The notes beneath the pieces are model-generated. The model was not told the origin of the DNA and did no database searches. It was given only the letters and a program-made list of their open reading frames with translations. 64,000 nucleotides of DNA from Panorpa germanica. Lineage: Eukaryota > Arthropoda > Insecta > Mecoptera > Panorpidae. How positions within the stretch are numbered: position 1 is the first letter of the stretch; each line of letters starts with the position of its first letter. The stretch is from assembly GCA_963678705.1 (NCBI GenBank), contig OY783206.1:21525807-21589806 (forward strand), given 5' to 3'. Positions 9,737 to 64,000 of this stretch are shown here, one piece after another. The position numbers and the translations under genes are program-made.

Positions 9737-9804
<68 letters not shown>
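9737..9804. repeat. (TA)n microsatellite, ~68 bp
   Basis: Uninterrupted alternating TA for about 34 units. Prone to length change and cruciform formation. Confidence 0.95.
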
Positions 9805-9809
<5 letters not shown>

Positions 9810-10098
9810 TATCCATTATACATCCATTTTTAACTATCCGGGAAATACATTTCTATATATAAGAGTCGTTTTACCTCAAATTTGGTCTAGCTCTGTAAGT
9901 AAAGACCTCTAAATTACAATAACTACTTCTCTCTTTTGATCAGTGACCTCTCTGAAAACTAACGTACTTAGTTTCTTCACGGCACTAACAAATTATAAAC
10001 AACCACGCTTAGAGTGTATAAGCAAGCTAATGGTCTATTTATAAATATGAAATGTAATTATTAGTATTAAATTCAACTAATACATATTTTGAAACAAT

Positions 10099-15298: not shown

Positions 15299-15912
15299 AA
15301 TGGGCTTTGTCCTCATTTTTTAGTGGTCGATTTTCAATTCTTGATTGAAATTGATGTTAATAAATATGTGTATTGGCAAGTCTATTTTATTAAATATCTA
15401 AATATTGACGGATATATAGCAATTAAAAGTTTAAATAGTAGTTTTAGCGCTAAAAATGGTCGGCCATATTTGTATGACGTGAAATGCATTTTAACGTCAG
15501 TTAGTTGTTGAGTAGCTCAGTGTTGTGGTAATGTTCTGTAGTTGTTGGTAGTCAAATAATCAAGTCAAATCAAAGAATAATAAGTTTTTATTTTATTTAA
15601 CCCTGTTACGGCAGACATAATATTGAAATTTTATTGTTCCTTGAAATGATCTTGATAGAAATGATTGTTCCATTATGATCTGTAAGGTTGGTAACCTTAC
15701 ACAACGATTGTGATGTCACATGCATTTGGAATGCTGTACAACGTTGAATCCCTATAATAATTAAAGAGACAAAATGACTTTTTTAATTGTTAATATCTCT
15801 TAACATATAAGGAGATATTAAAAAATAATTGAACATTTGAGGTTCTAGTAACCCACTTTGTCAATATATAGTACACTTTTATAGAAATTAAGACATAGGA
15901 CACAAGCCCATT
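15299..15912 (-). mobile_element. R1 MITE, near-complete copy (~614 bp)
   Basis: Ends AATGGGCTTTGTCCTCATT and GACATAGGACACAAGCCCA are well preserved. The open frame at 15323-15511 recurs in other R1 copies only because the DNA is conserved; it has no domain. Confidence 0.75.
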
Positions 15913-16499
15913 GGCACCGTACTATATAATGTTGATTACTATATAAAGAAAACCAAAAAATAATTAGTGAAGGAAACTGGAAAGAAAATAGAAGATTGAG
16001 GAAGCAACATACAAAAAAGGAGAGAAAGATACTAGGATGATCGCGAGGTTCAGTCTGCGGAATGAGGAATACAATACATTGAGGTACCAACAATTAGAAG
16101 AGACAAATGATACACAACATCAAGTATACAGCATCTATGGTATTCCATTCCTTTGCACCGCCATTGGATTATCTGCATCGTGTCAAAAACCCCACACGCC
16201 GATAGAATCTTCAAATACCGTTGATTAAGTACACTAACCTTTCCAAGTAAACTTCGACATTTTTTATATTTCTTAGAGGTTCAACTATACCACCCCTCAC
16301 ACTCTCACCTCCCTTCCTTCATACTCTAAAGATCGTTTAAATTTAAAAATAATTAATTTTTTATTTTATTTTAATTATTTTTATTTTCAATTTAATAATA
16401 TGGATGGCGATAAGATTGATAAATTGCTAAAATTAATACTCCGGTTCAATCGTCGTTAATGTCCCCAATTTAATAATTATATATTATGTATATAGATAA
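15913..16499. other. Unassigned spacer
   Basis: Nothing recognised. Short frames overlapping on both strands at 15845-16228 have no domains. Confidence 0.45.
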
Positions 16500-16612
16500 T
16501 ATATGTATATGTATACATATATAAATGAATAAGTATGCTTGGCTAATTTATATTTTAGATGATAATTACTTTAAGAGTGCTTTGAATTATGAGAATTTAC
16601 TATTTTAAGAGA
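16500..16612 (+). repeat. R2-containing repeat, left part (split by R1)
   Basis: Matches 2001-2100, up to TTAAGAGAAAT, where the R1 copy begins; the match continues after 17234. Confidence 0.65.
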
Positions 16613-17234
16613 AATGGGCTTTAGTCCTCATCTTTTAGTGGTCGATTTTTCAATGTTTGATTGAAATTGATGTTAATAAATGTGTATTGGCGTGTCTATT
16701 TTATTAAATATCTAAATGTTGACGGAGATATATCAATTAAAAATTTGAATTGTTGTTTTAGCACTAGAAATGGTCGGCCATATTTGTGAAATGAATTTTA
16801 ACGTCAATTATTTGTTGAGTAGGTCAGTGCTGTGGTAATGTTTTGTAGCTGTTGGTAGTCGAAATAATCAAGTCAAGTCAAAGAATAATAAGTTTTTATT
16901 TTATTTAACCCTGTTACGGCAGACATAATATTGGAATTTGATTGTTCCTTGAAATAGCTGTAAATAATATTTGATATTTTGATATATAAATACATATAGC
17001 AGAGATTTATGAGCTATAAGGTTGGCAGCGGTTGTGATGTCACATGCATTTGGAATGTGTACATCGTTGAATACCTTTAATAATTAAAGATACAAAATGA
17101 CTTTTTTAATTGTTAATATCTCTTAACATATAAGGAATTATTAAAAAATAATTGAACATTTGAGGTTCTAATTACCAACTTTATTAATATATAGTACACT
17201 TTTATAGAAATTAAGACATAGGACACAAACCCAT
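16613..17234 (-). mobile_element. R1 MITE inserted into an R2-containing repeat (~622 bp)
   Basis: Bounded by ATGGGCTTTAGTCCTCAT and GACATAGGACACAAACCCA. The empty-site copy near 2090-2100 reads AGAGAAATAGCAATTTTT, whereas here AGAGAA(AT) precedes and (AT)TGCAATTTTT follows. This shows true insertion with at most a 2-3 bp duplication. Confidence 0.78.
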
Positions 17235-17400
17235 TGCAATTTTTGAACTAGAAGGTTCTCTACTAAGAAATTAGATAGATGCAAATTACCACAAACTAGT
17301 TCTAAGGTTAATTTCTACTTTTAATATAGAAATTGTCTTGCAGTACAAGGGTTACTACAACATAATTTCAAGGTTCATGTTTTATTTGGGATGTACATTT
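17235..17400 (+). repeat. R2-containing repeat, right part
   Basis: AGAAGGTTCTCTACTAAGAA, then TATAGAAATTGTCTTGCAGT; continues the copy interrupted by R1. Confidence 0.6.

Positions 17401-19965: not shown

Positions 19966-19970
<5 letters not shown>
19171..19970. other. AT-rich spacer upstream of the homeobox gene
   Basis: No repeat family recognised. It lies 0.7-1.5 kb upstream of the start codon and could hold enhancer sequence, but no site can be argued by eye. Confidence 0.4.

Positions 19971-20041
<71 letters not shown>
19971..20041. repeat. (AT)n microsatellite, ~70 bp
   Basis: Uninterrupted alternating AT about 430 bp upstream of the inferred transcription start of the homeobox gene. 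Confidence 0.95.
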
Positions 20042-20045
<4 letters not shown>

Positions 20046-20414
20046 AGTTACACAACTTTTGAAGTACAAAAGAAAAAAACCCCAAGTAATTCTCTAATAA
20101 AGAAAATATATTGTCACATAATTCAAAAATGATTCTTGTATTGGAATAATTATATTTTTTTTATGAGTTTTTTATAGCCCATCAACAGTTAATTTATCCA
20201 TCATTACAGACATAAGCCCCGCCCCTTGTAACCGAAGCCGCACCCCAACAATATCACTGGTAACGATATATCAACCCCAATTGGATAAAACACCATTTCA
20301 AATTCAGTAGAATTTACAGAAAATCAACATATCTCTTTGAACGGAACATGCCGCTTTGATGTGATTGGACAGGGCGTGTTTCCACCTCTTGAAAGGCGCG
20401 GCTACAATCCCAAA

Positions 20415-20578: not shown

Positions 20579-20595
20579 CTTTGGAAAACTGTGAA

Positions 20596-20604
20596 ATGAC
20601 CTAA
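20596..20604 (+). promoter_or_regulatory. Upstream ORF 2 in the 5' leader (two codons)
   Basis: ATG ACC TAA, with A at -3, ends 56 nt before the main ATG. Minimal uORFs of this kind allow reinitiation in known cases. The effect here is inference. Confidence 0.4.
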
Positions 20605-20660
20605 AGTGTGTGAAAGTGTTGATCTTAGTTTTAAAAGTGTTTTGTAAAACAGTTTTTAAA

Positions 20661-21591
20661 ATGCTTTCCCCGGCCTCTCCGCCACATCCAAGTCCGCCTC
20701 TGAGTCCTACAGTGTCTGAAATATCCGTAGGGGCCCCAACACCTCCGCCGCAAAGCCCAAACTCGATAAGTTCGCCGCAAAACCGATCCGACGCTGACAG
20801 CTCAAATTTCTACACGCAAAACATCTCAGAGTGCGACAACACCACTGAAATCAGTGAGTACGAATCAATGGGCCATCGAAATGACGACATGGAGCATCGC
20901 CAGGAAGGCGATGACTACTTCCGGCCGTTGAAGAAGCTGAAAATGATGCATCTGAACAAACAGGAAGTCAGAGAAAGTAGAATAGTAAGCCCAGAAAGAA
21001 ATAAAACAAAGACTTTAGAAGCGGGCGTTAAATCTTTCTCTATAGTTGATATTTTAGGACATAAAAAGGATAGCAATCCAGGTCCTGCAAGGATTGTGCG
21101 TCCTTGGGACCTGAACGCGCATGGAAATTCAATGGAACACAATCTCGAACGGTTGCACCACCATCTAAAGACTCAAATTTCAGAACATATGAAACTAAAA
21201 CAATACGAACTCTCTTTAAAAACAAACAGTTTTGTGCAGAATCCGTTCGAGCATCGGATTCATCTGACACCGTTCGAAATCCAACAGCAGCTTCATCTCC
21301 AGGAGCATCTGAAGGTCCAGCAACAATACCAACTCCTAAGACATCATCATCAGAACAATTTAAGTAATTTTAATAATGAAAATCAAAAAGATTTGTTTAA
21401 TAATAGTGAATCCGGAAGTGATAGATCGAGTTCCGTAGCATCCGATTGCTGTAGTCCAGATATTGGTGGAAATACAACGACGGTAGCGACGCCAAGCGGA
21501 TCTAGAGGAAATCAAAAAGGAACACCTTTGGATGCGTTGTTCCAAATGACTAGCAAAACGTTTGAGGAAACTGCCGCGGAAAATGCACAAG
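20661..21591 (+). CDS. Ladybird/Lbx-like homeodomain protein, coding exon 1 (partial gene)
   Basis: Encodes the N-terminal 310 residues of a probable NK-class homeodomain transcription factor that would act in the nucleus. Seen in the sequence: a Pro/Ser-rich start, an acidic and Asn-rich stretch, an eh1/TN-type repressor motif SFSIVDIL at residues 125-132 (known to recruit Groucho in NK-type proteins), RIVRPWD shortly after it, a Gln/His-rich coiled stretch at about 205-232, and a TPLDALFQMTSKTFEE block at 288-303. The last block resembles the region just upstream of the homeodomain in Lbx/Ladybird proteins (A-L-x-x-x-x-SKTF). The ATG at 20661 has A at -3; the in-frame extension upstream to 20610 begins with GTG and is not a credible eukaryotic start. 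The exon ends CAAG|GTAGGA, phase 1. The homeobox should lie on a later exon, not recognised here. Other NK/Tlx-type eh1 proteins are possible; ladybird is inferred from two short motifs. Confidence 0.72.
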
Positions 21592-21822
21592 GTAGGATTC
21601 TTTGGAAACTTATTGTCTTTACTTTCTTAGGCTAAATGGGGTAAAACATATATTTTGTTGCTTCCAATTAAGTTCACAATGAGATTTTTATATTCAGATT
21701 CTTCTTCGTCTTTTTTTTCAATTATTGTATTGGAGTAACATCCCAAAAACATTATCCGATAATGTCATATCCGGAAACTTAAGTTGCAGACTCAAAGAAT
21801 CAAAAACTAAATATAATTGCAG

Positions 21823-31649: not shown

Positions 31650-32480
31650 CTTTATTCTAAGTTTATATTCTAAATTAAATAAAACGCAAAATTTGATTAA
31701 GAAGAAGCTGAAGTTTCATTCCCAATCACTATTTTAATTTAATTTTGTATTTTATATTTAATTTAAATTGTTTAGCATATGGTAATACGCGTAGTCATTC
31801 ACAGTACCACTTTTAAATTAATTTATTTTTTAAGTTTTTTTAGCTTTTTTAGAACCTTACAAGGTCCAATGTTTTAAATTAAAAATATTAAATTAAGAAA
31901 AACTATATTAAATTATAACCTCCAAAATGTGACAATCTGTTAAAATACAGTAAGATTTATTTTTAAAAGAAGTTCAATATCAATTTATCAAAAATATAGA
32001 AGAGAATACAATTTCTATTACTAATTGTTATTAAAAATAGCAATTTTAATTATTTTACATACAATTTTGTCGAACTGTCAAAATTTATATTACTAACGAT
32101 GCATACGCACCAATTAAATTAACTAAACTTAAATTAAAACACAAATTTTATAAGGAATGCTTAAACGAGAACCTGAAATCTAAGTAGATTAAAATATTAA
32201 ATAAAAACAGTAAATTAAATATCAAAACAGTGAGTGGGAATAAGGCTTAAAAAAACGTTATTCTATAAACAAAAACCATTAATTTGAGGATTAAAATTGC
32301 GTTCAAATTAATAATTTTCAAACTTCATTTTCTTGAATACGTAACAGAGAATCATAGTAGTTTTAATTCTATCAATTCAAAGTGCAACATATTTTTTTTG
32401 CTATTCTAAATTTATAATTCTAAGTTTTTATTCTAAATTAAATAAAATAGAAAACTAAATTGAAGAAGTAAGAAGCTAAG
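31650..32480. mobile_element. R7 MITE copy flanked by ~65-bp direct repeats
   Basis: Core R7 spans about 31712-32240, with ends CATTCCCAATCACTATTTTA and CAGTGAGTGGGAATAAGG. ATTCTAAATTAAATAAAA and GAAGCTAAG-like phrases occur on both sides (31655-31710 and 32400-32475), much longer than a normal target-site duplication. They may belong to an older repeat into which R7 inserted. Other R7 copies: 46644 and 55798. Confidence 0.6.
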
Positions 32481-38433: not shown

Positions 38434-39312
38434 TCCTTTAAACCTTGTCCTCAGTCTATTACATCTAGTTTGCCATTGTATACATTTCTTATATTTGTTG
38501 ATAAATAATATTTTACCAATATTATATACGGCTTATGATTTGTAATTAATAAACCTTAATTATTCCTGACAATGCTTTATGCCTATAAGGTCCGTGCCAC
38601 CTTAACTTAACTTCTAGCTTGACATTTTAGTTTATTAATTATTTATTTGGATCAATATATAATATTTGTTTGATACCCTGTAACAGACAGCTTGGGACAC
38701 AAAAGAAAGCGTATGCCCATTATTCAAAAACAGACATATAGGTAAACAAATAATAACACATACAAACAGTGACTAAGTAGCCGAGATATTATAACAATAC
38801 ATACATTGATTTTGTTCGTAAACTTATGTGGCTTGTGGAATCATTGCTAGCTTACCACAAGCTAAATCGAAGCTCTATTTCTTACATTATTGATAATCAA
38901 ACCAACATATTTTTTTACTTATCTCAACGTAATTTTGAAACAATTTTTATTGTTATGTTAAAATTTACACATTCAATTTAAAATTGTTTTCAATTTGATC
39001 CTTTTAAAATACCAACCGGCGCGGTGTCTGTTAAAGGAGCTCTTAACGTCTTAACACGATAAAAAAAGGGTTTCCAGTTGTTTTTTTTATCGTCATTTCG
39101 ATATCATTTGTCATAAAACTTTTTCAAAATATTTGGATAATATTATTGTAAGTTTATTTTAATGTTCTTTAAATATTTAGAAACAAAAAAAGAAAACATG
39201 ATTTTAATGACATTCCTACGCACTTACTTAATTCTGAAGAAAGATGGTTTTAAGTAATAAGGAGTCACCCTTCGAAATCTTGTTAAAAACACTGATCTCT
39301 ATTATAAGAAGG
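38434..39312. other. Unassigned spacer with one R2-like trace
   Basis: CATTGCTAGCTTACCACAAG at 38843-38862 is an R2 trace; otherwise nothing recognised. Confidence 0.4.
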
Positions 39313-39952
39313 AATGGGCTTGTGTCCTCATTTTTTAGTGGTCGATATTTCAATTGTTGATTGAAATTGATGTTAATAAATGTGTATTGGCGTGTCTATT
39401 TTATTAAATATCTAAATATTGACGGAGATATAGCAATTTTAAGTTTGAACTGTAGTTTTAGCGCTAGAAATGTTCGGCCATATTTCTATGACGTGAAATG
39501 CATTTTAACGTCAGTTATTTGTTGGGTAGGTCAGTGCTGTGGTAATGTTTTGTAGCTGTTGGTAGTCGAAATAATCAAGTCAAATCAAAGAATAATAAGT
39601 TTTAATTTTACTTAACCCTGCTAAGGAAGACATAATATTGAAATTTGATTGTTCCTTGAAATAGCTGTAAACAATATTTGATAATTTGATATATAAATAC
39701 ATATAGCAGAGATTTATGACCTGTAAGGTTGGTAACCTTACACAAGGATTGTGATGTCACATGCACTTGAAATGTGTACAACGTTGAACCCCTTAAATAA
39801 TTAAAGAGACACAATGACTTTTCTAATTGTCAATACCTCCTAACATATAAGGAGTTATTCAAAAATAATTGCACTTTTGAGGTTCTAGTAACCCACTTTA
39901 TCAATATATAGTACACTTTTGTAGAAATTAATACATAGGACACAAGCCCATT
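39313..39952 (-). mobile_element. R1 MITE, best-preserved copy (~640 bp)
   Basis: Starts AATGGGCTTGTGTCCTCAT and ends ATAGGACACAAGCCCATT, giving the clearest terminal inverted repeat of the family (AATGGGCTTGTGTCCT at each end). The flanks (AAGAAGG and GTTGCCC) show no duplication longer than one or two bases. Confidence 0.8.
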
Positions 39953-40338
39953 GTTGCCCTTATTACGTTTCAAATAATACGTAAAATCTATTTGTATAAA
40001 CTAATATGTAATATTTTCGTCGGTACGTGAGGAATATCGAAAACGATCAAAAGTTTCAATATATTTTATAAATAAACGAATACCGCTTACTCAAATTTTC
40101 TTTACAGGACAATATTTGCCGTATTCCCAATGAATGATTCTAAGTTTTTCAAAACAATCGTAAGAAAATTACCATTGTTATATCACAAAACATACGTTTC
40201 CGTTCCAACATAGGTCGGTGTCGGTGTGCGGTGTAAAATTGCAAAAAGTGTAAATTTTAGCAATTTAATGTAAAATTTAGAGTATTGAAACTTTTTCTAC
40301 GTATAAACGACATTAATTACGTTCTTAAATATGTTTTA

Positions 40339-46085: not shown

Positions 46086-46640
46086 AATAGAACGTACTCT
46101 GCTCCAGTCTATACTAAATTTAGCATACATTAAGTTTACCTCATCGTATTTTACCTTCTTCAATTTACAAATTTTCAATTTAATTTGAAAACTGTGTTAA
46201 AACACACGAAATATAGCTAAAAACTTTTTTATTTTGCTTCATGTCACGGTTGGTATAAAAGAAGGTAGCATTTTAAGTATAAACAACAAAGTAAATATAT
46301 ATTATTTTTCTAAACGGCTGTAAAATCGGTAATATAATGTTTATTATTATCGCTAGAGCCTCTACAGTCTATTGTCTCCACAACTTAGTCTATCAACGTC
46401 CACGGCTGCACGGTACGGCTGCAGGCGCGCATAATAGTTGCCCAATCGATGACGTCATCTACACACCGCGCTGATAATGTTAATTACTTTGTATTTCTTG
46501 TGTAAAACTGTGACTTTTTTTCTAAATAGATAATTATATACATTAACATTATTATATTAGTCTATTGTAGTTGGAGCAAAAAAACGATTGTGTGTTGACG
46601 ATTTAAATGTAACAGACGTACCCAGCGTAAAGTATCATTC
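46086..46640. other. Unassigned spacer
   Basis: Nothing recognised. Confidence 0.4.
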
Positions 46641-46643
46641 ACA

Positions 46644-47113
46644 CTTACTGTTTTAATTTTGTTTTTAATTTTGTATTTAATTTAAATTGTATAGCATATG
46701 TATATATGCGTAATCATTTCCTGTACCAATTTTAATTTACGTTTTCTTTGTTTTTTAAAACCTTAAACCTTCGCCTAAAAAATACTGTATTATAACCTCC
46801 AAAATGTGAAAATCTGTCAAAATGCAGTAGGATTTATTTTAAAAAAAAGTGTAATGTCAGTTTGTCAAAAATAAAGAAGGAAAAACCATTTCAGCAAACA
46901 GCATTCAAACAGCATTTCAAACAGCATTTTAATTATTCCATATTCAATTTTGTCCAACTGTCGAACTGTCAAAATTTATATTACCAAAGATGTATGCGCA
47001 TCAACTTAATTAACTAAACTGAAATTAGAACACGAATGCTTACTGAAATCTAGATTAAAATATTAAATAAAAACGTAAATTAAATATCAAAACTGTGAGT
47101 GGGAATTCAGTCG
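46644..47113 (+). mobile_element. R7 MITE, copy 2 (~470 bp)
   Basis: CACTTACTGTTTTAATTTTG at the left and AACTGTGAGTGGGAATT at the right, with interior TATAACCTCCAAAATGTGA and ACTGTCAAAATTTATATTA as in the other R7 copies. Confidence 0.68.
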
Positions 47114-49786: not shown

Positions 49787-50010
49787 CAGAGGCGGCTGCG
49801 CTGGCTACGGGAATTGCTAGTGCATTTATTTATACTATTTTTTAATATTTTAGGTAGTAAATTTATGAAACAAAAATGTTTCAATCGTTCGGCGGTGCTT
49901 GAAAATGGTTTACGGCTTTGAATGTGATGACGAACAAAAGGGTCGAATACCTACTCAGTCTCCAGTGTAATCGTTTTTTCTAGTTGTGTTTAGTAAATAA
50001 TTAAAAATAT
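49787..50010 (+). mobile_element. Left end of a transposon related to the 62-kb element
   Basis: Begins AGAGGCGGCTGCGCTGGCTA; the following TATGAAACAAAAATGTT, GAACAAAAGGGTCGA and CAGTCTCCAGT blocks recur in order at 62112-62220, directly upstream of the transposase-like ORF. The match ends after GTAAATAATTAAAAAT, so the coding part is missing here. Confidence 0.6.
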
Positions 50011-55797: not shown

Positions 55798-56312
55798 TAC
55801 TGTAGGTATTATTCTCACTCACTGTGTTAATTTTGTATTTAATTTAAATTGTATAACATTTGGAGGTATGCGTAATCATTCCCTGTTAACCATTTTTAAC
55901 TTAGAATTTAATTTAAGGTTTCCTTTTGTTTTAGAACCTTACAAGGTCCAATATTTCTAAATTAAAAAGAAGTATATCATATTATAACCTCCAAAATGTG
56001 ACAGTCTGTCAAAATGCAGCAGGATGTATTTTTAAAAGATGTTCAAGATCAGTTTGACAAAAATAAAGAAGTAAAAACAATTTCTATTACTAATTGTTAT
56101 TAAAACATCAATTTTAATTATTTCACATTTAATTTTGTCCAATTGCCGAACTGTCAAAATGTATATTATTAACGACGCATGCGCATATACTAAATTAACT
56201 AAACTCAAATTAAAACACGAATGAGGAATGTCTGAAAACGTGAAATCAAGATTAAAATATTAAATAAAAACATAAATTAAATATTATAACAGTGAGTGAG
56301 AATGAGGCTTTA
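55798..56312 (+). mobile_element. R7 MITE, best copy (~515 bp)
   Basis: ATTCTCACTCACTGTGTTAA at the left and ACAGTGAGTGAGAATGAGG at the right define the TIR (ATTCTCACTCACTGT). Interior includes ACCTTACAAGGTCCAAT and ACGACGCATGCGCAT. Non-coding. Confidence 0.75.
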
Positions 56313-56935: not shown

Positions 56936-57535
56936 ACAAAGCACTAAATTAGCAAGTCATTTTTGCATAAGTAAGACTTTTCCTTTAATCTTCTCCTTAC
57001 TTTTAAATGCGGTCCTGCCTATCAGCTACCCCTAACACCTAATATAGGGGTAAGTTAAACAGAACGCACGGGGGGTGACAGTAAATCGTAGTTAGTAGCG
57101 ACAATGATTGTTTTTTCTGAAAGGTTTAACAGGGAAAAATCTATTTTCTAGATTTATTTGAATTGGATTCACATTAAATGGGAAAATAGGTGGAAAACTC
57201 TGTTAATTAATCGTTATTTATTTGAACGGTGGAAAAGGAAAACACTAAACGTTTATTGTAGAAAATTTAAATTAATGTCGAACGATTTTAGTGAGGTTTT
57301 TAGGTCATTTATTTACTTCGGAGAACTACTCGTACTTTTTTTTTCTTTTTTATTTAATTTATTTAATTCCCAAGGTGAATTCTACCACTGACGACCTTCT
57401 ACTGTGTTGCATTATTCGCCTTATATTTGTGGGCTATACTGCTGGTTGATTAGTTTATTATCATAGATGCACATAATAAATTTAATTTGTAAAAACCAAA
57501 CCTAGAAAATATAATTGTTTTATTTAACTTGTTCA
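56936..57535. other. Unassigned spacer
   Basis: Nothing recognised. Confidence 0.4.
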
Positions 57536-57539
57536 TTAT

Positions 57540-57793
57540 CCCAGTAAACATTTTGGAGTCACTTTGACATCATATTGAAGATGCGTCATGATTTTTTTGT
57601 CATTAAAGAGTTCATTTATAGTTCAGTTTCTCACATTTTTTCATATAAAATGTCTACTTTATCGGCTACAAATGACGAAATTACTCCACCTGTCGGAATA
57701 CAAATGAAAATAAAGTTGATGCGAACTATAATTGAAGAGAAATAGTGATAGAAACGTCACTAAATAGGGCACTTCACCAAATTGTTTACTGGG
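57540..57793. mobile_element. R9 TIR element, short copy (254 bp)
   Basis: CCCAGTAAACATTTTGGAGT and CCAAATTGTTTACTGGG with AT on both sides. The right 60 bp are almost identical to the 861-bp copy at 10890. Confidence 0.72.
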
Positions 57794-57823
57794 ATGTTTC
57801 ATTGTTTTCTGCTTAAGGGAGGG

Positions 57824-57891
57824 TTAAGTTTAAATCGATACTAAGAAAGCATAATTCCGATAATGTTTTTTGATGACACAGTTAATATAAA
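57824..57891 (+). mobile_element. RA element, left end cut by the copia insertion
   Basis: AAGCATAATTCCGATAATG and ATGACACAGTTAAT match the left end of 51532-52202. The match stops exactly where TGTTGG of the LTR begins. Confidence 0.65.
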
Positions 57892-58096
57892 TGTTGGAAT
57901 TACAATACATTCATTCTTAAATTAAATTACTGAAACTGGTTTTGTTTTTGTTTATATAAAACTATTATATTAAATTCAATTGTTTTATGTCTATAAGAAA
58001 TTTTTACTGATTTCTTTCTGTATAATTTCAGTCTGAGGACTTATTGATTAATAAAATATTTAATATATAACTGTGCATATAATATCTGCTTCAATA
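57892..58096 (+). mobile_element. copia-type 5' LTR (205 bp)
   Basis: Starts TGTTGGAATTACAATAC, like known copia LTRs, and ends directly before the primer-binding site. The end is TA instead of CA. TATATAAAA at 57953-57961 can serve as TATA box and AATAAA at 58050-58055 as polyadenylation signal. No 3' LTR partner was found in the window. Confidence 0.78.
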
Positions 58097-58110
58097 GGTT
58101 ATGGGCCCAG
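58097..58110 (+). other. copia primer-binding site (initiator tRNA anticodon arm)
   Basis: GGTTATGGGCCCAG is complementary to the anticodon arm of initiator tRNA-Met, not to its 3' end. Drosophila copia is known to use this half-tRNA priming mode. The site follows the LTR without a gap and precedes the gag start by 9 nt. Confidence 0.82.
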
Positions 58111-58119
58111 GCAATTAAT

Positions 58120-59799
58120 ATGACGACATCAGTGAGTGCTACAAGATTTGAGCTGTTGAGTAAGGACAATTATGAAGCCTGGAAAATTCGTGTTGAGGCG
58201 CTATTGATCAAAAATGATTTGTGGGAATATGTCAGTGGTGAAAAACCGATTCCTGTTGCTGCGGAAAATAATCAAGAAGAAAGAAATGGATGGATAAAAA
58301 TTGATCGTAAAGCTAAGTCAGAAGTAATATTAGCAATTAGTTCAACGGAATTGCAGCATGTCCGAGGTTGTAATACTTCTCATGAAGTTTGGCAAAAACT
58401 TGCCTCAGTTTATGCTTCCAAAGGACCTGCAAGAAAAGCTTTATTACTTAAGCAACTTATGCTTCACAAGATGTCTGAATGTGGTGATGTCAGGGATCAT
58501 GTAAACAAGTTTTCGGATATAGTTGATCGACTTGGAGCTATGGATATTGAAGTGAATAAAGATTTATTGTCTGTAATGTTATTATATAGTCTACCAGATA
58601 GCTATGAAGGCTTTAAATGTGCTATGGAATCACGTGATGAACTCTTGGAGGTTGAAGCTCTTAAGGTTAAGATACTTGAGAAGAGTGAAATTGGTTCAAA
58701 TTCAGTTGTTGAGTTAGCTGGAAATGTAAGGGCTGAAAATCAACCGAGTTACAAAAATATTTTTAAAGGATATTGTTTTAAATGTGGAAAACAAGGACAT
58801 AAGTCTGCTGAATGTCCAACTCAATTGAAACCAAATTTCAGAAGAAATAGACCAGATAGACAGAATAGATACACACAAGAAAACCAATGTTCTCAAGCGG
58901 ATGATGATACTTTTGCAGTATTTAATGTTGAATTTGCTGGTAGTGTTCCAAGTTGTCGACCTTGGATTCTTGATAGTGGCTGTACAACACATTTATGTGG
59001 TGATAAACAATTATTTAAGTCTTTAAATGAAGAAATTAGTGGGAAAATAAATTTGGCTAATCAAGCAAATAGTGAAATCAAAGGAAAAGGTACTGTTAAT
59101 TTGTCGATTAGTAATGGTAAACAGCTGAGGTCAGTAGATTTTTCAAACACATTATTTGTACCAGATTTAAGGTCAAATCTAGTATCAGTTGCTAAAATTA
59201 CTAATAAGGATCATGAAATTCTATTTAAAAAGGATTCAGCTGTAATTATGGATATGACTGGAAATGTTAAATTTGTTGCTGAAAGGCGTGGTGATCTCTA
59301 TTATTTACAAGAAGGTAATGAAGAAGCTTGTATTGGAGAAGATAAAGCTAATTCTGAGTTATTGATGTGGCATTGTCGTATGGGTCATTTAAATGCTAAG
59401 GATTTATTTCGGGTGATTAATCAGAATACTACAAGTAAAGTAACCTCTGAACAATTGAAATGTTTGTCAAGATGTGAAGTGTGTCTACGAGGCAAGATGA
59501 CAGGGTTACCGTTTTCAGGAAGTGAACGACAGAGTGAAGAACTTCTTGAAATAGTTCATACAGATATTGTTGGACCGTTTAGGACACAATCAGTGAATGG
59601 AGCAAAATATTTTATTACATTTATTGATGATTATTCTCGATGGTGTGAAGTATACTTTCTTAAACAGAAGAGTGGTGCACTAGAAGCTTTCAAAATGTAT
59701 CAAAATCAAGCTGAACGTATGACAGGGAAGAAGATTAAGTATCTTCAAAGTGATAATGGTAAAGAGTATTGTAATACTGAGATGGATTCACGTCGGTGA
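58120..59799 (+). CDS. copia gag-pol polyprotein, 3'-truncated (559 codons)
   Basis: Copia/Ty1-type retrotransposon polyprotein, needed for particle formation, cleavage and integration. In order: gag of the copia (UBN2-like) type at about 8-200; CCHC knuckle CFKCGKQGHKSAEC at 219-232; aspartic protease with D-S-G at 285-287; pre-integrase zinc region with H418, H423, C452, C455; integrase core with D482 (HTDIVGP) and D545 (QSDNGKEY). The frame breaks after EYCNTEMDS, before the expected catalytic Glu, so the rest of integrase, all of reverse transcriptase/RNase H and the 3' LTR are absent (family length about 1,400 residues). The remaining frame has no internal stop, so the truncation looks recent. 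The ATG follows the primer-binding site directly. Confidence 0.9.
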   Translation: MTTSVSATRFELLSKDNYEAWKIRVEALLIKNDLWEYVSGEKPIPVAAENNQEERNGWIKIDRKAKSEVILAISSTELQHVRGCNTSHEVWQKLASVYASKGPARKALLLKQLMLHKMSECGDVRDHVNKFSDIVDRLGAMDIEVNKDLLSVMLLYSLPDSYEGFKCAMESRDELLEVEALKVKILEKSEIGSNSVVELAGNVRAENQPSYKNIFKGYCFKCGKQGHKSAECPTQLKPNFRRNRPDRQNRYTQENQCSQADDDTFAVFNVEFAGSVPSCRPWILDSGCTTHLCGDKQLFKSLNEEISGKINLANQANSEIKGKGTVNLSISNGKQLRSVDFSNTLFVPDLRSNLVSVAKITNKDHEILFKKDSAVIMDMTGNVKFVAERRGDLYYLQEGNEEACIGEDKANSELLMWHCRMGHLNAKDLFRVINQNTTSKVTSEQLKCLSRCEVCLRGKMTGLPFSGSERQSEELLEIVHTDIVGPFRTQSVNGAKYFITFIDDYSRWCEVYFLKQKSGALEAFKMYQNQAERMTGKKIKYLQSDNGKEYCNTEMDSRR

Positions 59800-60062
59800 A
59801 GATAGCAGCGGATTCGATAGCAGTCGATTCGGACTAGTGTTGTAAATCAAAACTAATTCGGTGTTAAATCGAAATTCAAATTACATGGCTAATCGGAACA
59901 TTTAAGCAAATATTTAAGTAATAATAGACTGTAGAAGTATTAAGTAACCTAAATATTATTATATAATGAATAAATTAACCAATTAGTGTCTTATATTGCT
60001 GTTTTAATATAGGAAAATAAAATGCAAACGAACATCTAAATAATCATAACTTTTTGATATTA
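59800..60062. other. Junction zone between copia and the satellite array
   Basis: Starts at the abrupt end of copia homology. Contains short GCAGYCGATTCG-type repeats (59806-59835), a motif seen again as GGCAGTCGATTCAG near 60434. Non-coding. Confidence 0.45.
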
Positions 60063-60660
60063 TTTTTTTATAAATAGGTTAACTAATATGTCTCTTAGGT
60101 AATTACAAAATTTCAGCCGTCACAAATTCTTATTTTCTACAAAAAGTGCAATTTAGTGAAACTATATACAGCTCTGTTTCATATCTGTGCGGCAAGTCAT
60201 AAGAAGCTTAAAAATCTAAAAAAAATTATCATTTAATGAAATTATTTGTTTATAAATAGTTTAACTAATATGTCTCTTAGGTAGTTACAAAATTTCAGCC
60301 ATCACAAATTCTTATTTTCTTCAAAAAGTGCAATTTAGTGAAACTATATACAGCTCTGTTTCATATTTGTATTGGCAACTTATAAGATGTCAAATTCAAA
60401 GATAACCTAAAAATTCAGTACGTTTATAAAATCTGGCAGTCGATTCAGTGACAGCTCTGTTCCATATCTGTGCGGCAACATATAAGATATTTAAAAATCG
60501 TAAAAACCTCATTATGTAATAAAATTATTTTTCTATAAATAGCAATTGCAATTTATATAAAATTAAATTTGCAATAATATTGCAATTTAGTAAATTCCTA
60601 TACAATGACAGCTCGGTTTCATATTTGTATAGGCAACTTATAAGATGTAAAATTCAAAGA
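60063..60660. repeat. Tandem array of ~180-bp units, about three copies
   Basis: AACTAATATGTCTCTTAGGT, AAATTTCAGCC, AAAAAGTGCAATTTAGTGAA and CAGCTCTGTTTCATAT recur at 60078 and 60260, and the last motif again near 60450 and 60610. Each unit ends GGCAACTTATAAGATGT or a variant. The array runs directly into the truncated last exon of the SGNH gene and may be subterminal repeats of its transposon (inference). Confidence 0.75.
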
Positions 60661-60666
60661 TAACCC

Positions 60667-60853
60667 AAAAATAATTCCCGTATATCTAGGACATGAATAT
60701 AAGGATCTGAAATTATATTCTGGTTAAATAAATAAAAAGAAAATTTTGATGAAATTAGTAAAGTAACTTACGGCTTTTTGACAATGATAAAATTCTTTCG
60801 TTGTATTTGTCTAAGGTTTTTATTTTTTTAGGGTCATTTTCCCATATTGGCGG
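60667..60853. repeat. 187-bp inverted repeat, left arm
   Basis: Reverse complement of 63467-63653; no mismatch was found by reading both arms base by base. It covers part of exon 3, the intron and the first part of exon 4 of the SGNH gene. Confidence 0.85.
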
Positions 60854-61619
60854 AGTGGGCAAAGTTAACCATATAGCTCTAGATGAAGTTTCGCTTAGTA
60901 TCTTTGCAATACTTGAAATATTGTAAGTAAATGCTTGATAGTGTTTTTCCTGAAAGCAAATTTGGTCGTATTTTATATTGTTATACATATAGCTATATTT
61001 AAGGTTACTTAATATAATGTTTTATGCTTACTTTCATAATGTCATTTATTCCGATCATTATGATGGCATTTTGTGTCAGTAAGGGATTACCATCATGATA
61101 TCATCCATTAAATTCACTGATTTTCTACCACTTTTTGCGAATTCTACGTGGTTAAATTCTATTTCTTTTTTAAATAAAATCTTTTTGGCATATCTTACCA
61201 GAAAAGAGTCTCCATAAAGAGTCCATGTAGAATACTTGGAAATTTAAAATAAATGTTGTTACTTTACGGCATCCAATTACACACAATTACAATACATACA
61301 TTCCATTACTTAGAAGTTTTGTAGTTATACTTACGAGAACATTATTACTATTAAGAGCGTCAGACTTGCTTGTTGACAAGTTTGTTTGTTAAAAATATAT
61401 TTCATTAGGTATCTCAAATTTAAATAAAGTTTAACTTACTTGCAAATGGTAGTACAAATTTCGTCTTGAGTATTGTATATTTATGAAAAATTTTGTTGCA
61501 CAAATTTTACATTCAGCGTTCAACAATTTATTTTTGTTTAATTGTGTATGATCTTCCCCTTCCGGGTTATCATTAATTTTGAAAAACTTACTCAACCCAA
61601 CTGAAAAACGCACAGACAT
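60667..61619 (-). pseudogene. BED zinc finger - SGNH hydrolase gene, exons 1-3 and part of exon 4
   Basis: Exon 1, 61619-61440: ATG, then AECKICATKFF...YYHLQ, a BED-type C-x2-C...H finger, ending CAA|GTAAGT. Exon 2, 61234-61032: YGDSFLVRYAKKI (the G-D-S nucleophile block) and, after a one-base frameshift near 61085, IGINDIMK (the G-x-N-D block), ending AAA|GTAAGC. Exon 3, 60949-60772 after CTTTCAG: AIWLTLPTPPIW...KYNERI, like SGNH/GDSL block IV, ending |GTAAGT. Exon 4 from 60706: HPYIHVLDIREL, then broken after 60667 into the tandem array. Phases 0, 0 and 1 agree. SGNH enzymes are Ser esterases or lipases; the substrate is unknown. The frameshift plus lost C-terminus (block V His) suggest a non-functional copy. 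Confidence 0.7.
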
Positions 61620-61639
61620 GGTAATAATCAAAATATTTT

Positions 61640-62085
61640 AAAATAAGGTAAATGTTGTTATACTTTAAAGAATGAGTGAAAAATAGAAATTGATTAAAAA
61701 CATTAGGTATTGGTGCTGCAGTTTGTTAAACTTTTTTCTCTATTTGATGCTATCTCCGTCTACTCGATATTTTATAATGAGCTTATTTATTAAATATGGT
61801 CGTCCTTCTGGTATCTGGGGCAAGAGGTCTTTTGCGCTATTTAATTTAAGCATTCGTGTTACTTATTTTACTATAATGTATATAACTATCGAAATTGACC
61901 CTTGCAGTTTAATGATTGGTACAGATTGGTGTGACATTAACATGCGACATCCAACATTTATATATTTTCATTCATAAGTTGTCATTATTTAGACATGAGT
62001 GTACTAAATGTGTTGTACTTTTAACGTACGGACTAGCGACGATTAGCGACATTAACATGCGACACTAACAAAACTCTTACTTTTG
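61640..62085. other. Divergent spacer between SGNH gene and transposase leader
   Basis: Presumed two-way promoter region. GACATTAACATGCGACA appears at 61932 and again at 62049. An open frame at 61690-61977 starts at TTG and shows no domain. Confidence 0.4.
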
Positions 62086-62280
62086 CTATTTTTTAAAATT
62101 TCAAGTAGTATTTTTATGAAACAAAAATGTTCCAAAGATATGTTGGTAAATCAAATAAATTAGGGTTTTGAAGAATGTCTCGAACAAAAGGGTCGAGTAC
62201 CTACACAGTCTCCAGTATAATCTCATTGAGCGTTGACGTTCATTTTTAGTTGCGTTTGGTAAATAAATAAAAATAATGGA
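62086..62280 (+). mobile_element. Transposon leader shared with 49830-50010
   Basis: ATGAAACAAAAATGTTCC, CGAACAAAAGGGTCGAG and CACAGTCTCCAGTATAATC are found in the same order in the non-coding relative, linking the ORF downstream to a dispersed transposon family. Confidence 0.6.
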
Positions 62281-62282
62281 AA

Positions 62283-62506
62283 ATGGAAATTAATACGAAT
62301 ACAAATATTATTACATGTTCTTCACATTCTGAGAACCCTAATTTTAATGTGATTTCTACAGATAATATTTTATTAAAATCTCCAATCACGACAATAAATT
62401 CTCTTGAACCGTTTTTAGATAATGTTACCAACATAAATAAATCACTAGATCTGAAAAATGTAATTGATAATAACAACTTACTTGATAATTTATCACGTAA
62501 CAACTA
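62283..62506 (+). CDS. Small ORF upstream of the transposase-like gene
   Basis: 74 codons from ATG, Asn/Ile/Thr-rich, no domain recognised. It overlaps the following ORF's upstream extension in another frame. It could be the N-terminal exon of the transposase or chance; the stop lies just before the ATG at 62510. Confidence 0.3.
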
Positions 62507-62509
62507 ACA

Positions 62510-63486
62510 TGGATACCATACCTCCTTCCCAATTTGTTTTTTACATCTCCATTGAAATTTGGAACAAATTATATGTTTATAGGGAAACTATTCCTACTCT
62601 CAGATTATCTACTGGCTGGACCAGTATTTTTGCTCGTGAATTTTCAAAATTTAATAGCCGTTGTGTTCTTAAATTTACCTATGGGAAATTAAAATCTGGA
62701 AAACGAAAAATTAATTGTCATTTTTTTCATGGAAAAGCGGTATGCAAATTTCAATCATGTGCAGCATACTATTTTGATATTATTGACGAACCCTGTAATT
62801 ATTCAAACGTCGGTGTTCACGTAACACAAATCGGAACATTTTATCATCAAGTAAATGAATGTCAAAGGAGACAAATCCGTAATGAAGAACGCACTAGAAT
62901 TAAACAGCTATTAAAAATTGATAATCCAAAGATAGTGCATCTTAATGAAATATGCCAGACCCCAAAATCTTCATTGCTCTCTGGTAATTATACCAAAAAT
63001 CAGAACTTAGCGACCATTCGTAAAGTCGCAAGTGAACTGAAATCCGATATAGATTTAGATAAAGATGTCTTATTACATATTCACAAATATAGTAAATTAT
63101 CTGATTCTGTTTGGAATTCAGACGGAAATTGTAACGTCTTGCCGCAAGGTATTTATGTAGATACATTTGATAAATATTGTATACATTTTTGTTCAGAGCA
63201 GCAGGTTAAATTATTAGTTAATATGCGTGGGCCAGTTTCAGTACACGCAGACGCCACTGGTTCGTTAATAAATAAAACGAAGTTATTTGAAAAACAATTC
63301 TATTTATATTCTGTTGTAATGGATTACAATAAAAAAACACTTCCCATATTTCAATTTTTAACATGTAACCATACCCAATTTAATATTACCCATAGAATAA
63401 GTGAATTTATTCAATTTGTTAAACAAATTTACCCCAATCATCGGCCGCGTTTAATTCATAAGGTAACCGCCAATATGGGAAAATGA
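62510..63486 (+). pseudogene. Transposase-like protein, C-terminally truncated
   Basis: From ATG 62510 (a longer in-frame start exists at 62464). Seen: basic, Cys-containing N-terminal part with CHFFHGKAVCKFQSC (possible DNA-binding zinc site, about residues 66-81), then VSVHADATGSLINK near 243-256 followed by FYLYSVVMDYNKKTLPIFQF and LTCNHTQFNI. The D-A-T-G block followed by a hydrophobic strand resembles the first catalytic Asp region of MULE-like or other DDE transposases; the family could not be fixed. Homology ends at HKVT, where the reading frame crosses into the SGNH inverted-repeat arm and stops four codons later; the rest of the DDE core is missing. Confidence 0.6.
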
Positions 63487-63653
63487 CCCTAAAAAAATAA
63501 AAACCTTAGACAAATACAACGAAAGAATTTTATCATTGTCAAAAAGCCGTAAGTTACTTTACTAATTTCATCAAAATTTTCTTTTTATTTATTTAACCAG
63601 AATATAATTTCAGATCCTTATATTCATGTCCTAGATATACGGGAATTATTTTT
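63467..63653. repeat. 187-bp inverted repeat, right arm
   Basis: Mate of 60667-60853. Begins CCGCCAATATGGG, directly after the transposase codons, and ends in ATTATTTTT, beyond which the two arms diverge. Confidence 0.85.
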
Positions 63654-63693
63654 ACAAAATAATAAAGTGAATGGACACTTGTTTGAGCAGTAA
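63467..63693 (+). pseudogene. SGNH hydrolase gene, 3' portion (part of exon 3 plus full exon 4)
   Basis: Exon 3 remainder 63467-63548 ends SLSKS C|GTAAGT; exon 4, 63614-63693 after TTTCAG, reads HPYIHVLDIRELFLQNNKVN then GHLFEQ and stop. GHL near the end fits the block V His of SGNH hydrolases (usually D-x-x-H), which the left copy lacks. No upstream exons on this strand. Confidence 0.65.
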
Positions 63694-64000
63694 GAACATG
63701 AAGTTTATACTTAAATACATACTTATATAAATAAATAAATACACAGACTCATATATGATATACATTCCCTATTTACAGATTCTACAAGAAAAACAATAAA
63801 CCCGATCAATTACATTGGAATATAAATGGGATGCTTAAAGTACATAAAATAATTGCACAACATATTTAAACAATGTACTAAAATCAACCACCTACTATAC
63901 TAAGAATGAACTAGAATTAAATAAAATATAGCTGTTTAATTAGTAATCGAGCTGTCATGGTAATTAGTTTCAATAAATTATAATTTTTAAAGTAAATAAA
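63694..64000. other. Unassigned AT-rich end of window
   Basis: Nothing recognised. Confidence 0.4.

Follow-up and report, generated by a model that had tools for sequence, protein, structure and literature searches.

A pair of perfect inverted arms in Panorpa germanica, found near the right end of the analysed window (a stretch of 64,000 nucleotides in full), probably marks a damaged foldback-like DNA transposon that inserted into a copia retrotransposon, carries an SGNH-hydrolase gene and a probable transposase gene, and was rearranged by one inversion-duplication event. The locus has the appearance of debris left by a rearrangement and not of a functioning genetic switch.

The arms (left, 60667–60853, minus strand; right, 63467–63653, plus strand) are exact reverse complements, complementary at 187/187 nt (100%), as the preliminary description had claimed, and they are separated by a spacer of 2,613 nt. 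An inverted repeat of 20 bases or longer arose in just 4 of 200 first-order Markov sequences of matched length and composition, which places the 187-bp arms far beyond chance. The pair is one of 72 inverted pairs that one search setting found in the window; among the matches listed (25 of the 72), the remaining 24 are 84–98% matches. For the divergence of the arms, 0 differences in 187 positions give a 95% upper bound of ~1.6% (rule of three), and therefore either the event was recent or the arms have stayed alike. An Rfam scan returned 0 matches at the gathering score.

Both arms are made of SGNH gene pieces, from exon 3 across intron 3 into exon 4; the left one contains the final part of exon 3, then intron 3 and the first part of exon 4. 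Exons 1 (61440–61619), 2 (61032–61234), and 3 (60772–60949) lie on the minus strand, and the exon joins of the gene have GT/AG splice sites with agreeing codon phases. The layout described earlier, with 2.6 kb between the arms holding exons 1–3 on one strand and an open reading frame (ORF) on the other, is right. Two versions of exon 4 were identified. In the truncated one (60654–60706, minus strand), homology stops at 60667 and the reading ends in ...DIRELFLGYL and a stop codon within the left flank; the LFLGYL terminus proposed before was thus borne out. The complete one (63614–63693, plus strand), when joined to exon 3, reads HPYIHVLDIRELFLQNNKVNGHLFEQ and then a stop; this right-hand reading ends in DIRELFLQNNKVNGHLFEQ at 63693, past the right arm, with NKVNGHLFEQ as the closing residues. 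Only past the right arm is exon 4 completed, and only the left arm has exons 1–3 next to it. Together, they form one phase-matched 3′ end, which fits one original gene.

The reading frame of the SGNH gene is not intact. Exon 2 comprises 203 bases (2 mod 3), and its GDS and GIND motifs are in different frames, with the break located between ...NLMDDI and NPLLTQNAIIMIGIND; by inspection, there is no space for an intron between the two motifs. The preliminary description did not include this break. The GDS, SG, GIND, and GH blocks, which we take to be the Ser, Gly, Asn, and His blocks of SGNH hydrolases, are all present by inspection, GH requiring the right-hand exon 4. With X placed at the break, the joined protein matched Pfam Lipase_GDSL_2 at 33.0 bits (cut-off 32.9, E 1.1e-7). 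Searches for its relatives yielded 29 candidates, with 0 at E ≤ 0.01, and 11 pattern matches in viral contigs, with 0 confirmed, and solved structures gave no match at E ≤ 10. The "BED finger" assigned earlier to this gene was based on a CxxC...H pattern, seen by eye in exon 1, and did not find Pfam support: no domain scored above its cut-off, and exon 1 alone (E ≤ 1) or together with the start of exon 2 (E ≤ 10) returned only DUF7152, at 13.5 and 12.7 bits, respectively, far under the cut-off of 27.

The ORF on the plus strand extends from 62464 to 63466 and then into the right arm, encoding 340 aa from stop to stop (62464–63486). It crosses into the arm at 63467 and is closed by a stop codon that ends 20 bases further in. 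Its 340 codons exceed the chance expectation, the longest ORF in 500 Markov sequences having 164 aa. The earlier claim of an ORF on this strand stands, while the term "transposase-like", given by eye, has no Pfam support: no family was detected at E ≤ 1, nor at E ≤ 10 for the portion up to the arm, MULE or other transposase domains included. As the ORF may be truncated, with no Pfam family found at E ≤ 10, it was not labelled MULE/Mutator. Among possible relatives, 285 candidates in the protein collection included 0 at E ≤ 0.001, the viral contigs contained no pattern match, and 35 pattern matches in genome contigs included 0 that were confirmed. Matches to GrlR and its relative L0044 in the PDB (E 0.0068 and 0.006) were taken as chance, as was an NCBIfam GrlR match with an E of 0.00092 yet only 19.3 bits against a cut-off of 205. 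The single-sequence structure model was unusable, with a mean pLDDT of 31.4. By eye, the last ~80 residues resemble the RNase H-like core of a transposase, presumably its first half, and the ORF is a probable transposase gene. Because it has no Pfam match, no relatives, and no usable model, we can only infer that it formerly continued and has probably lost its 3′ part.

On the left, a copia-type LTR-retrotransposon gag-pol ORF (58048–59784, plus strand) stays open up to an abrupt break at ~59784, apparently caused by the insertion of the enclosing element. Its Pfam matches are Retrotran_gag_2 (4e-51), Pol_BBD, gag_pre-integrs, and rve, the last of which ends at residue 579 of 583, corresponding to base 59784. 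Judged from this break, the outer border of the left flank would be at 59785. The flank (59785–60672) contains internally repeated units, and its portion from 60017 to 60672 is made of diverged repeats with copies 82–94% alike. We distinguished three families: D1 (60017–60188 and 60199–60370, 87%), with units 182 bp apart; D2 (60168–60259 and 60451–60542, 82%); and D3 (60350–60414 and 60608–60672, 94%). These repeats escape TRF, which at its default score detected no array in 57000–64000. The left flank is probably the terminal repeat of a DNA transposon of the foldback-like kind.

At the opposite end, the stretch 63949–63999 (minus strand), inverted relative to the left flank, may be the start of a right-hand terminal repeat, the greater part of which would lie past the end of the window. 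When 63960–63999 was compared with the left repeats in a composition-weighted alignment, 2 of 764 control stretches scored at least as high, and none of 262 other queries did. With plain scoring, 90 of 390 controls reached the value observed for the right end of the window, and a third scoring gave 17, with 100 shuffles going up to 20. The window's final 50 bases, which stand out in one of these three scorings, are therefore suggestive of an inverted counterpart of the left repeats. If this likeness is right, the arms sit inside a foldback-like transposon that extends from near 59785 to beyond 64000. The window contains no second copy of the element, apart from a short relic at 49826–50009, which is 73% identical to spacer positions 62077–62275, located between the two divergent genes. 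A tblastn search revealed no coding relatives beside the relic.

The left breakpoint is marked by a 6-bp microhomology, AAAAAT (60667–60672), common to the repeat unit and the gene. When the junction was set beside another repeat unit and the right copy, the last left repeat unit was seen to be cut mid-unit by the left arm, after AAAAAT. Random pairs of points in this region share at least 6 bp with a probability of ~0.004. Past the right arm, exon 4 continues to its end, which argues that an inversion cut through one ancestral gene, with 187 bp duplicated at the ends of the inversion, and arms assembled from parts of exon 3, intron 3, and exon 4 are what an inversion with duplicated ends leaves. 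On the ancestral element there would have been a spliced SGNH-hydrolase gene and, divergent from it, the probable transposase gene; the element would have been inserted in the copia retrotransposon. Its probable order, based on exon order only, was left repeats, the rest of the ORF, the ORF, the divergent region, exons 1–3, the arm sequence, and the end of exon 4. A single later break-repair or replication event then probably inverted the stretch spanning the plus-strand ORF through SGNH exon 4, leaving 187 bp of the SGNH gene duplicated in inverted orientation at both ends of the inverted stretch, with the probable loss of the ORF's 3′ part and of some of a terminal repeat unit. We infer two likely mechanisms for such an event. 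It could have proceeded through microhomology-driven template switching, with backward copying across both genes followed by a return, or through staggered breaks that were filled in before rejoining. The microhomology leans toward template switching.

The preliminary description proposed that inversion of the enclosed segment would join exons 1–3 to the exon 4 ending in NKVNGHLFEQ and thereby swap a functional C-terminus. The geometry of this proposal is correct, in that one gene is divided by the arms and its two parts do come into line when the spacer is inverted. Repeated inversion of the 2.6-kb segment by recombination between the arms, with the SGNH protein alternating between two C-termini, would agree with the identity of the arms and with the arrival of exons 1–3 at a complete exon 4 in the flipped state, and excerpts of a study of a Drosophila subobscura breakpoint report natural spacer inversion between inverted repeats (PMC7584159). 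The functional swap, however, is not supported, owing to exon 2. Its frame break precedes the switch point and is kept whichever way the segment points, and therefore neither state encodes a full SGNH domain; the gene is broken in either orientation, barring a sequencing error at the break. An invertible locus should have inverted arms bounding its segment, which the exact 187-bp arms provide, and an intact product in at least one orientation, which the break precludes in both. On this ground, a functional switch was rejected. The present orientation, without the His-bearing end (the presumed catalytic histidine), would be an off state at best; the arms consist of gene fragments; only one orientation is in hand; and a Pfam search of eight proteins and ORFs of the window recognised no site-specific recombinase family, the sole recombinase match being the copia integrase core. 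A locus that alternates in this manner is very improbable. General recombination between the arms requires no dedicated recombinase, and occasional flipping by ordinary recombination is possible; the protein would stay unrestored. If it were a switch, the locus would be an unusual case of regulated inversion in an animal. Instead, the evidence points to an ordinary rearrangement in mobile DNA, and such arms should not be taken as regulatory.

The inverted arms around a possible transposase ORF could also suggest a 2,987-bp transposon with the arms as its terminal inverted repeats and the SGNH exons as captured cargo. This reading is hardly credible, as the arms are composed of an exon and a spliceable intron, the gene extends past the right arm, the left arm cuts a repeat unit, and a target-site duplication around the arms is absent at every length from 2 to 12. 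It was rejected on the lack of this duplication together with the exon and intron content. A head-to-head junction of two partial element copies, left by failed transposition with interrupted gap repair, predicts the same order of pieces as the inversion-duplication event, and such interrupted repair is one usual outcome for cut-and-paste elements. Identity over all 187 bp, however, would be expected of independent copies only if they were very young, and we consider such a junction quite unlikely. A chimeric join during assembly or amplification is somewhat easier to entertain, yet still unlikely. Amplification chimeras are frequently inverted and joined at microhomology, and the perfect identity of the arms agrees with such an origin. 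On the other hand, the flanks outside the arms differ between the two sides, the arms measure only 187 bp around a spacer of 2.6 kb, and two separate false junctions would have been necessary. The inversion-duplication event inside a foldback-like transposon remains our preferred explanation.

Rearrangements of this form have been described elsewhere. In Drosophila subobscura O7, according to excerpts of PMC7584159, an inverted segment is bounded on both sides by a short stretch, in inverted copies, that was present once in the inferred ancestral order, and one junction shows microhomology, as is the case here. The same excerpts set out both staggered-end and template-switching models and infer inversion of a spacer between inverted repeats. 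Unlike that chromosomal inversion, the segment described here is ~2.6 kb and resides inside a transposable element, and its ancestral order derives from exon order only. The internally repeated left flank, with D1 units 182 bp apart, resembles that of foldback-like transposons (Foldback, Galileo, Tetris, and Tm1), and the opposite end hints at an inverted counterpart. Excerpts of the respective reports describe Tetris as foldback-like with internal repeat units of ~220 bp (PMC4079207) and Tm1 as a foldback-like element with internal repeats (PMC3169594). In contrast to these elements, the one studied here carries an SGNH gene, its probable transposase is unclassified, and its right end and target-site duplication lie outside the window.

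SGNH genes have been tied to mobile DNA in CR1/L2/RTEX retrotransposons, in the bdelloid elements Vesta and Athena, and in Helitron-linked texim, as stated in excerpts of PMC5408684 and PMC4021074. All of these are SGNH/GDSL genes associated with mobile DNA, as here, whereas the present gene adjoins a probable DNA-transposon gene and repeated flanks. Among the papers listed on SGNH and DNA transposons, foldback/NOF/MULE/Rehavkus elements, OSK and transposable elements, Phantom, and inverted duplication, the titles and opening lines of the abstracts describe no SGNH gene in a foldback-like transposon, and the term "SGNH" is absent from the main text of the papers on MULEs and giant transposons PMC6446971, PMC13359780, and PMC6431247.

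The joined SGNH protein (61032–61234, 60772–60949, and 63614–63693) also matched Pfam OSK, the domain of insect Oskar (PF17182), at 31.0 bits, above the cut-off of 27. The match spans profile positions 18–161 of 202, and the OSK score is almost equal to that of GDSL_2 (33.0 bits). As controls, we used 10 bacterial SGNH proteins, consisting of two TesA relatives and eight plasmid-borne esterases. OSK was listed for 8 of the 10 at 12.1–23.6 bits, none of the 10 reaching the cut-off of 27, and their GDSL_2 scores were 71.8–101.4. By these profile scores, the joined protein is more OSK-like than the ten bacterial controls, which are all TesA-related by the way they were found; eukaryotic SGNH proteins (such as CR1 ORF1 and texim) stood outside this set and may behave alike. 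In contrast to the OSK domain of Oskar, the gene keeps the GDS serine motif, has no LOTUS-type Pfam match upstream in the exon 1 region, and is mobile-element-associated and broken.

Excerpts of PMC7250577 report no eukaryotic BLASTp match resembling OSK and argue for a bacterial source. A highly speculative alternative is that insect foldback-like transposons carry SGNH genes close to OSK, and that the OSK half of Oskar might be transposon cargo rather than a direct acquisition from a bacterium. With low probability, the OSK half would then have reached the insect genome, or moved beside a LOTUS gene, via a transposon, and the present locus would be a broken representative of such a mobile, OSK-like family. 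An OSK relative in an insect mobile element, if true, would bear on the origin of the OSK domain, and the cargo, an OSK-matching SGNH gene beside a probable transposase gene, is worth a second look.

Several other features were observed elsewhere in the window. A 346-aa ORF with an EH1-like motif (20595–21635, plus strand) resembles what we take to be the first exon of a ladybird-type homeobox gene; it has no Pfam match, and the motif WF[QKR]NRR is absent from the window. This ORF, together with the copia element and a base composition rich in AT, suggests an insect host. A dispersed repeat family occurs in both orientations at 681–1320, 2337–2970, 15366–15913, 16602–17246, and 39295–39953, its copies being 87–98% alike among the matches listed (inverted pairs). 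Long AT dinucleotide runs are present at 9738–9822 and 19970–20054, and a repeat of ~500 bp has three copies (31711–32241, 46630–47106, and 55827–56303) that are 70–90% alike in pieces.
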